Shown: piece by piece, positions 1-8,807 of the stretch
How the letters are laid out: each line of letters starts with the position of its first letter
How positions within the stretch are numbered: the stretch's first letter is position 1
Source: Archaeoglobaceae archaeon
Lineage (GTDB): Archaea; Halobacteriota; Archaeoglobi; Archaeoglobales; Archaeoglobaceae
Assembly (NCBI GenBank): GCA_027064525.1
Contig: JAMOPJ010000002.1
Coordinates: 1-64,000, forward strand
Direction of reading: 5' to 3'
Length of the DNA: 64,000 nucleotides
Position numbers and translations under genes: made by a program
The notes under the pieces: generated by a model
Databases searched by the model: none
Told to the model about the DNA's origin: nothing
The model's input: only the letters and a program-made list of their open reading frames with translations

Positions 1-385
<385 letters not shown>

Positions 386-463
386 TAAGCCGGCCCCAGG
401 CATAAGCTGGGGACAGATCTCTGCACGGCGGAGCAGAATTTTTATCACATTTTAATTGTTAAA

Positions 464-6786: not shown

Positions 6787-7310
6787 AGATCCTGGTTCTT
6801 TCGGACACCCACCTCTACAGGCTTGAAGATCTACCGAATGGCGTGCTCAGAAGACTTGAGAATGTGGATATGGTCATCCATGCCGGCGATTTCGACACAT
6901 ATGAATTCTACAGCGAGCTTAAGGATGCCGTAAAACTTGAGGCTGTTGCCGGAAACAGCGATGACTTTGATATAATTCAGGAACTGCCCGAAACTGCGAA
7001 GCTTGATGTAGAAGGCCTGAGAATTGGAGTTACGCACATGCCGATATTCGATGATTTCTCGGATTTGGTTTACAGGGCAAGGGAGCTTGAAGTTGACGTC
7101 ATGATCTTTGGGCACACACATTGTCCCTTTCTTAAAGAGGTTGGTGGAATAGTCTTGCTCAACCCCGGAAGCCCTACTCTGCCGAGGTTTAGCGTTCCGA
7201 GCTTTGCGGAGATAGTTGTAAACGATATCGTTGAGATTACGATCGAAGGTGTCGGAAATGAAGATATTGCCCGATTCAAGCTTGACCGAAGGAAGGACTG
7301 CCGTTGTTAA
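6783..7310 (+). CDS. YfcE/MJ0936-family metallophosphoesterase
   Basis: The calcineurin-like metal motifs appear in order: SDTHLY near residue 7, HAGDFD near 38, GNSDD near 58 and GHTHCPF near 111. These ligate two metals in the MJ0936/YfcE phosphodiesterase family, which hydrolyses phosphodiesters; the cellular substrate is unknown. Its 175 residues are typical of the family. It overlaps the upstream gene by ATGA and its 3' end overlaps moaE by 53 bases, so the three genes form one unit. Confidence 0.9.
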   Translation: MKILVLSDTHLYRLEDLPNGVLRRLENVDMVIHAGDFDTYEFYSELKDAVKLEAVAGNSDDFDIIQELPETAKLDVEGLRIGVTHMPIFDDFSDLVYRARELEVDVMIFGHTHCPFLKEVGGIVLLNPGSPTLPRFSVPSFAEIVVNDIVEITIEGVGNEDIARFKLDRRKDCRC

Positions 7311-7848
7311 GGATTCGGGTGATTTCTACGAAGTTTACGAAAACGGTGAAATGATACTTAGCATTAGGAAAGATTTCGACGTTTTTGAGATCCTCGCAGA
7401 CTTGGGGTTCGATTCAGTCGTTTACGATAAGGTCGAGCATCCGGAGGAGATCGAAACCTTGAGGTCTCTGATCAGGAAGGTAAAGTCTGCCAAGGGTGTT
7501 GAGAGATGTGGAGCGATAGCGATCTTCATCGGATTCGTTAGAAGGATATCGGACGGCAAGGAAGTAGTTCGACTCGAATACGAGAGGTTTGACGAACTGT
7601 ATTGGCAAAAGCTGAAGGAGATCGAGAAAAGGATAAAGGAGAAGGAGGGTGTCGTGGACGTCAAGATATACCACAAGATCGGATCTCTGAAGCCGGGTGA
7701 GGATATACTCTACGTCATCGTTATGGGCGAAAGCAGAAAAGATGTTTTCAAACCACTTGAGGATTGCATAGAAATGATAAAGAGAGAGCTCCCGATATGG
7801 AAGAAGGAAGTCTACGAAGATGGAGCAATATGGGTTCACGATAAGTAG
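7258..7848 (+). CDS. moaE: MoaE-like molybdopterin synthase large subunit with N-terminal extension
   Basis: The C-terminal 120 residues match MoaE: GAIAIFIGFVRR, then a LEYERFDELYW segment, HKIGSLKPGEDILYVIVMGESR, and a late KREVP-like IWKKE motif. MoaE takes sulfur from MoaD thiocarboxylate to build the dithiolene of molybdenum or tungsten cofactor. About 75 residues precede the core, whereas plain MoaE lacks these; this extension is of unknown role. ATG 7258 overlaps the phosphodiesterase end by 53 bases. No MoaD gene is adjacent. The stop codon touches the 3' end of an opposing C/D sRNA at 7848. Confidence 0.85.
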   Translation: MKILPDSSLTEGRTAVVKDSGDFYEVYENGEMILSIRKDFDVFEILADLGFDSVVYDKVEHPEEIETLRSLIRKVKSAKGVERCGAIAIFIGFVRRISDGKEVVRLEYERFDELYWQKLKEIEKRIKEKEGVVDVKIYHKIGSLKPGEDILYVIVMGESRKDVFKPLEDCIEMIKRELPIWKKEVYEDGAIWVHDK

Positions 7849-7905
7849 GGCTCAGAGCAGATCCGTGTCATCACATTTCAGTCCGTCAGCTCGTCATCAT
7901 AGCCC
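7848..7905 (-). ncRNA. C/D box sRNA A
   Basis: Read on the minus strand, the order is a GGGC stem end, C box ATGATGA (7900-7894), a 12-nt guide, D' box CTGA (7881-7878), AAT, C' box GTGATGA (7874-7868), a 12-nt guide, D box CTGA (7855-7852) and GCCC, which closes the stem. Two equal 12-nt guides and a terminal stem are the archaeal standard for 2'-O-methylation guides. The D' guide CGAGCTGACGGA is complementary over ten bases to CGTCAGCTCG, a universally conserved stretch of small-subunit rRNA helix 34-35. Its 3' end abuts the moaE stop codon. Confidence 0.88.
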
Positions 7906-7938
7906 ACTTTTATTTGTCCGATGTAGTATCTAACTTTT

Positions 7939-7996
7939 GCCACGATGATGATAGGGGATCACTGAGCGGTGATGAGGATAGCCCCTCCTGAGTGGC
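7939..7996 (+). ncRNA. C/D box sRNA B
   Basis: The terminal stem is GCCAC (7939-7943) with GTGGC (7992-7996). Inside are C box ATGATGA (7945-7951), a 10-nt guide, D' box CTGA (7962-7965), C' box GTGATGA (7969-7975), a 12-nt guide GGATAGCCCCTC and D box CTGA (7988-7991). All four boxes are consensus. The guide targets could not be settled from the window. It lies only three bases from the 3' end of sRNA C on the other strand. Confidence 0.88.
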
Positions 7997-7999
7997 TTA

Positions 8000-8056
8000 A
8001 GCCTCAGTAAGGCGCTTTCATCATGACTCAGCAAGGGGTTCGGATCATCATCGGCT
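8000..8056 (-). ncRNA. C/D box sRNA C
   Basis: Read on the minus strand: AGCC stem end, C box GATGATGA (8052-8045), a 13-nt guide TCCGAACCCCTTG, D' box CTGA (8031-8028), C' box ATGATGA (8024-8018), a 10-nt guide AAGCGCCTTA, D box CTGA (8007-8004) and GGCT closing the stem. Its 5' end overlaps the last two bases of the stop codon of the permuted GTPase gene on the same strand, so it may be processed out of that mRNA. Targets are unresolved. The tRNA-Arg(TCG) anticodon arm resembles the complement of the first guide but needs a one-base bulge. Confidence 0.85.
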
Positions 8057-8807
8057 ACAGCCACCACGCTGTCAGCTTACAGTTATTCCAATCGTTTATC
8101 AACCTTGTAGCTGCTCTATGCGTGTCGGGTTCACCACCCTTTCTTAGAAATCCGAACTTTAACGCTATTTTTTCAAGAGTTTCCTCGCTCGGCTCAGGCT
8201 CAACTCCATAAAGCTCTTTGAAGTTCGAGCCTTCGGCATTCTTTATCTTCTCAAGGAGTATGAAAGCCGATTCCTCTACATCATCCGGAAACAGAATCTT
8301 TGCCCAATCTTGGCTTGCGAACTCCTTGGGAATAACTCCGGGCGTGTCCGAGAGCAGGAGCTTACCGCTTATCCTTATCCACTGCTTTCCTTTAGTATGT
8401 CCCGGGATTGGGGCTGTAGAGACGACGGTGCATTGGGCGAGCATGTTGATTATACTTGACTTGCCGACGTTTGGGAATCCCACAACCACGAGCTTAGCCT
8501 TTCTGTCTCTACCAAAGTAGCTTTTAAGACTTCTTCTGAGTATCCAAAATCCGTAGAATTTCTTGCTAGAGACGTGAACAACATCAACGGCATTGCTTTG
8601 CTCTTTCAAAACCCTTTTACATCTGTCAGCAAACTCTTTTGGCACGAGATCAACTTTATTGATGATTATCCAGAAAGGCTTGTTGAGTTCTTCAAAAAGA
8701 TCTTCGAGCTTCTTACTTCTGAACTCGTTCGGACATCTGGCATCGACTACCTCCAAAACACCATCGCTACTCTTGATCTCGCTGATAACAGTCTTCCACG
8801 AACTCAT
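8055..8807 (-). CDS. Circularly permuted GTPase, YlqF/YawG family
   Basis: The GTPase motifs come in permuted order: NKVD (G4) near residue 50, then GFPNVGKSS (G1) near 109, then DTPG (G3) near 153. That order defines the YlqF/RbgA/YawG family of ribosome assembly GTPases. The length of 250 residues suits the archaeal branch. It probably helps large-subunit maturation, an inference from the family. The tRNA gene 33 bases upstream lies on the same strand and may be co-transcribed, and the stop codon overlaps a C/D sRNA, which also puts it in an RNA-processing setting. Confidence 0.9.
   Translation of the reverse strand: MSSWKTVISEIKSSDGVLEVVDARCPNEFRSKKLEDLFEELNKPFWIIINKVDLVPKEFADRCKRVLKEQSNAVDVVHVSSKKFYGFWILRRSLKSYFGRDRKAKLVVVGFPNVGKSSIINMLAQCTVVSTAPIPGHTKGKQWIRISGKLLLSDTPGVIPKEFASQDWAKILFPDDVEESAFILLEKIKNAEGSNFKELYGVEPEPSEETLEKIALKFGFLRKGGEPDTHRAATRLINDWNNCKLTAWWL

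Follow-up and report, generated by a model that had tools for sequence, protein, structure and literature searches.

The question that this locus raises is whether the short stretch between the 3' ends of two convergent protein genes of a heat-loving archaeon encodes genuine guide RNAs and, if so, how these would be made and what they would guide. The window, by which we mean the whole 64,000-nucleotide stretch of DNA that was analysed, comes from an Archaeoglobaceae MAG of 1.89 Mb in 53 contigs. A preliminary description had proposed three C/D box sRNAs, here A, B and C, packed between moaE and a GTPase gene, and the features of this junction are the following.

7231 to 7848, plus strand: moaE, molybdopterin synthase large subunit (Pfam PF02391, E 8e-26); 7231 is the ORF start and the true start codon may differ.
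7848 to 7905, minus strand: C/D box sRNA A, 58 nt, with D' guide CGAGCTGACGGA and D guide CACGGATCTGCT.
7906 to 7938, no strand: A/B spacer, 33 nt between the 5' ends of A and B, holding candidate back-to-back core promoters with the TATA-like elements TTTTATTT for B and GTTAGATA for A.
7939 to 7996, plus strand: C/D box sRNA B, 58 nt, with D' guide TAGGGGATCA and D guide GGATAGCCCCTC.
7997 to 7999, no strand: B/C gap, 3 nt between the 3' ends of B and C.
8000 to 8056, minus strand: C/D box sRNA C, 57 nt, with D' guide TCCGAACCCCTTG and D guide AAGCGCCTTA.
8055 to 8807, minus strand: 50S-binding-type GTPase (Pfam PF01926, E 2e-17).

Read from 5' to 3', A (minus strand, 7905 to 7848) is GGGC-T-ATGATGA-CGAGCTGACGGA-CTGA-AAT-GTGATGA-CACGGATCTGCT-CTGA-GCCC, B (plus strand, 7939 to 7996) is GCCAC-G-ATGATGA-TAGGGGATCA-CTGA-GCG-GTGATGA-GGATAGCCCCTC-CTGA-GTGGC, and C (minus strand, 8056 to 8000) is AGCC-G-ATGATGA-TCCGAACCCCTTG-CTGA-GTC-ATGATGA-AAGCGCCTTA-CTGA-GGCT. 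Boxes C (RUGAUGA) and D (CUGA), close to the termini, as well as the internal C' and D' boxes, are exact in the three RNAs, and the consensus boxes and closing stems of the preliminary description can thus be read directly. Each RNA has a terminal stem of 4-5 bp and a single unpaired base 5' of box C, which fits the k-turn requirement. When both strands were scanned with the strict pattern RTGATGA-N9-14-CTGA-N2-8-RTGATGA-N9-14-CTGA, three matches were found in the 64 kb, all of them within 7848-8056 and at the coordinates first proposed, against none in 300 dinucleotide-preserving shuffles of the window. C/D boxes are short, and A, B and C might be imagined as chance consensus matches in the DNA flanking moaE and the GTPase gene; we consider this extremely improbable, given three strict matches within 209 bp where 300 shuffled windows held none, and given the conservation of the boxes of this locus in sibling genomes (counting this one, those of C in four genomes and those of B in three). 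Since the boxes are kept in the siblings while the guides drift, A, B and C are real but ordinary additions to a known class of sRNAs.

A covariance model trained on six sRNAs scored A at 62 bits, A being itself in the training set, and recovered B, which had been left out of training because MAFFT alignments misplaced its box C or split its box D. Rfam at gathering thresholds gave no family match to 7848-8056; archaeal C/D sRNAs are described as under-annotated (PMC7994747), and the locus contributes guide RNAs without previous annotation from a group that has been little studied. The class comprises RNAs of 50-70 nt whose guides, about 10-13 nt long, are complementary to rRNA or tRNA; as members of it, A, B and C would each bind L7Ae, Nop5 and fibrillarin and guide 2'-O-methylation 5 nt upstream of box D or D'. 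Overall, we judge it quite probable that the locus holds three C/D sRNAs with guide roles, made from promoters or by readthrough, at a junction that has changed stepwise.

C/D sRNAs are abundant and their clusters common in this genome. With the covariance model, five genomes of the genus yield 20-32 candidates each, and the box scanner, applied to selected stretches, counts about 29 here. Genome-wide numbers, obtained by the model search and from targeted stretches, are lower bounds. Other clusters were seen in the genus. One of three or four sRNAs (in the order -,-,+,+ where there are four) occupies about 280 bp at G035:C39:9018-9297 and recurs on G038:C23, G036:C26 and G037:C195. In G035, G037 and G038 its co-directional pair lies 5-6 nt apart, from D box to next C box, and shares closing-stem bases, so that one precursor could yield only one of the two sRNAs. 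At G000:C51:11112-11731, in this genome, about 600 bp of AT-rich DNA stand between two sRNAs, against those 5-6 nt from box to box in the three relatives. At G036:C10:54245-54348 two candidates converge with touching D boxes (0 nt) and terminal stems that would overlap; of the two, the second has a low score and is possibly spurious.

The junction itself differs among close relatives. In G036 only C is present, and moaE enters it antisense with its stop inside C (...HDKPQ*). G035 and G038 carry B and C, convergent and one or two bases apart by covariance-model ends, and there moaE ends at a TGA that is part of box C of B (...HDKSSPR*). Here the order is the moaE stop TAG, A on the minus strand, the 33-nt spacer, B and C. 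The orthologue of C thus lies at the same place in G035, G036 and G038 with drifting guides, and that of B at the same place in G035 and G038 with intact boxes; the GTPase DNA is 75-95% identical across the four genomes in which the boxes of C are conserved. No copy of the D' guide of A and no A orthologue were found in the sibling genomes, and in G015 and G017, which have the GTPase gene, the box scan of those loci gave no sRNA. In the GTPase tree this genome groups with G035 and G038, with G036 outside. A stepwise history would follow, with C common to four relatives, B to three and A found in this genome only; most simply, C came first and B second, and the unit of A and spacer was acquired in this genome or lost by deletion in the G035/G038 line. 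A weak lead that would fit the deletion is the sequence 5' of B in G035/G038 (AAATCTTC), which resembles the spacer end of another divergent pair (AAATATCTTTA).

Regarding biogenesis, the preliminary description had suggested processing from mRNA 3' ends for these RNAs, and none of A, B and C is followed in the sequence by a T run like that of a terminator. The GTPase stop codon (8055-8057) has two bases within C in sense orientation, as had been reported. For the moaE stop TAG (7846-7848), said to be abutted by A, the account was nearly right: the two overlap, the final base of the codon (7848) being also the last base of A. Overlaps at 3' ends, stop codons within box C and small clusters (two or three sRNAs) are already documented for archaea (PMC7994747), and sRNA genes at gene borders and in clusters were also described in PMC3491384. 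The proposal that A, B and C all come from mRNA 3' ends and have no promoters of their own, the convergent B and C precursors meeting as regulatory antisense RNAs, draws on the sense overlap of C with the GTPase stop and its weak or absent TATA-like element, on the sibling B that has the moaE stop in its box C and no such element, on the missing T-run terminators, and on the description of most archaeal C/D sRNAs as promoterless (PMC7994747). Against it, A is antisense to moaE, which excludes an origin from moaE mRNA, and lies head to head with B at 33 nt, an arrangement absent from the preliminary description; a TATA-like element precedes B in this genome; for such an element, 65% of the remaining sRNAs in the genus score above the 95% background level; and mature B and C do not overlap. 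We therefore consider an mRNA origin for all three unlikely, and retain mRNA 3'-end processing for C and for B of G035/G038 and not for A.

The TATA-like elements were assessed with a TATA-type matrix, built from the remaining sRNAs of the genus and compared with random positions. B here scores 5.68 (reached by 3.7% of random positions), A a weak 3.56 (9.8%) and C 1.22 (22.6%), with 0.07 for B in G035/G038 (31.6%) and -5.61 for C in G035, G036 and G038 (80.7%). These scores suggest that in this genome B, and possibly A, would be promoter-driven, and that C and the sibling B would be mRNA-derived. B at least may have its own promoter here, owing to the TATA-like element in the spacer that it shares with A. 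In this sense, C would be trimmed from the 3' end of the GTPase mRNA, and A and B would arise from back-to-back promoters in the 33-nt spacer or, alternatively, by readthrough (GTPase-C-A on the minus strand, moaE-B on the plus strand); protein protection and trimming, instead of terminators, would define the ends of the sRNAs. One junction in one genus thus offers a natural series at converging gene ends, from a stop in an antisense C (G036) through a stop in box C of B (G035/G038) to a separate head-to-head pair (this genome), which makes promoter-driven versus mRNA-derived sRNA biogenesis directly testable in relatives.

Head-to-head pairing is found three separate times in the genus, with 40-44 bases between the C boxes.

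Pair 1: A and B, at this locus.
Pair 2: G000:C42:26782-26920 in this genome, with relatives in G036, G037 and G038.
Pair 3: G000:C51:10976-11112 in this genome, with relatives in G035, G036, G037 and G038.

Upstream of the 20 members of these divergent pairs, positions -26 and -25 are A or T in every case. Bidirectional archaeal promoters are known from Pyrococcus (PMC6640164), and a limited literature search found no description of recurrent head-to-head sRNA pairing with a spacer of ~30-33 nt. The G000:C42 pair had appeared as a BLAST match to the locus (70% over 148 nt) and was rejected as a copy of it: it is really the second divergent pair, and the similarity is due largely to shared boxes. 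Its minus member shares the stem GCCAC/GTGGC and the guide lengths 10/12 with B, and the two may possibly be paralogous.

The antisense contact that had been raised for the precursors of B and C is a different matter. Their 3' ends do lie three bases apart on opposite strands, and the D boxes with the 3' stem arms of both (CTGAGTGGCTTAAGCCTCAG, 20 bases) form a hairpin of -5.4 kcal/mol on each strand. If a B or C precursor passed 7997-7999, antisense pairing with the 3' end of the other RNA would be possible, and readthrough from moaE or the GTPase gene would carry the full antisense of A or B.

For the targets, guides were scored by the number of uninterrupted pairs running over the fifth base from the box, a G-U pair counting 0.3, and 16S and 23S sequences were taken from siblings because this MAG holds rRNA fragments only. 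The contig start (window 1-391) lies inside the 3' end of a 23S rRNA, the rRNA operon being fragmented in this MAG. Of 58 guides of this genome, 38 score at least 9 on 16S/23S, compared with 9 of 58 shuffled guides, so the method detects real signal (mean score 9.4 versus 7.8); taken singly, most guides do not reach significance, 2-24% of shuffles being as good. The D' guide of A fits 16S 1035 with 10 Watson-Crick pairs and one G-U, its D guide fits 16S 1177 with 9 pairs and two G-U, and only 1 of 400 shuffled guide pairs is as good within 200 nt. By homology we take these sites to lie near 1060 and 1193 in E. coli numbering, on the two strands of helix 34; A may methylate 16S 1035 and 1177 and also bring these strands together. 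A chaperone role has been suggested for guides that reach across the two strands of 16S helix 28 or helix 30 (PMC4644070). Two facts count against this target of A: the base next to the box in the D' guide is unpaired at 16S 1035, and this position is already covered by the D guide of another sRNA, G000:C17:38612-38660. We also discarded the idea of A as a relocated family-wide 16S-1035 guide: in G015, G017, G023 and G024 a different sRNA carries that guide in the D position, together with a D' guide similar to the one that fits 16S near 1084, and this combination matches G000:C17:38612 and not A. The sRNAs of these four genomes with guides like those of G000:C17:38612-38660 sit at other loci.

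Both guides of B are predicted to pair with tRNA-Cys. The D guide forms 10 pairs with the D loop (predicted site G18), the D' guide 8 pairs and one G-U with the 3' strand of the anticodon stem (predicted C40), and none of 1500 shuffled pairs was as good. C40 is a doubtful site: ribose methylation there has been argued to be impossible because its 2'-OH contacts 16S A1339 (PMC7668247), in which case the D' pairing may only anchor B, or the tRNA-Cys assignment is wrong. The 71-nt tRNA-Cys query of this genome has an identical gene in each of G035-G038, and B was not found in G036 and G037 despite that identity, which counts against the target. Pyrobaculum tRNA guides use only one of their two guides (PMC7994747); no description of a free-standing dual guide on tRNA-Cys was found in our limited literature search. 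A wider reading, in which head-to-head sRNAs on two fully interleaved core promoters within ~30-33 bp are a genus-wide trait, B has switched between mRNA-derived and promoter-driven forms, and B is a dual guide of tRNA-Cys, is put forward as a whole only tentatively; a promoter-bearing unit of A and spacer would then have come or gone beside the moaE-mRNA-dependent B of the siblings.

Regarding C, its guides jointly fit tRNA-Leu best in this genome (0 of 300 shuffled pairs as good); siblings do not retain the D part of this fit. The T-loop C56 of tRNA was rejected as a target, since the fifth-base rule points elsewhere. Some of these sRNAs, C in particular, could be decayed or orphan copies kept by neutral turnover and devoid of a working target: the D guide of C is different in every sibling, the closing stem is broken in G035, G036 has CAGA at D', and the D' guide fits 23S 2661 in G036 and elsewhere only with a mismatch. 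However, the boxes of C are conserved in four genomes across GTPase DNA of the identity given above, and its guide pair fits tRNA-Leu better than 300 of 300 shuffled pairs here. We regard decay as rather doubtful and prefer working guides, with tRNA-Leu possibly the target of C.

In comparison with known systems, A, B and C are like the archaeal C/D box sRNAs described in the work of Omer/Dennis, Gaspin and Randau (review PMC7994747) in boxes, spacing, closing stem, two guides, length (57-58 nt), overlap with gene 3' ends and small clusters. TATA-like elements are found for 65% in this genus with our own matrix and for 20% in the six species of the cited study, by a different method. The mobile C/D box sRNA genes of Nanoarchaeum equitans (PMC3491384) likewise sit at gene borders and were proposed to move, whereas here there is presence or absence at one junction in one genus, with no mobility mechanism seen. 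N. equitans sR15 and sR17 pair with both strands of 16S helices 30 and 28 (PMC4644070), as A is predicted to do with a different helix, 34. The Pyrococcus sR50 / pre-tRNA-Trp intron sRNA (PMC7994747) directs two guides to one tRNA (Cm34, Um39), as B is predicted to do, although B is a free-standing gene that would act on tRNA-Cys, with G18 and C40 as predicted sites. A further difference from the archaeal C/D sRNAs reviewed in PMC7994747 is that sRNAs paired head to head recur in this genus, their spacer varying little, at about 30-33 nt.
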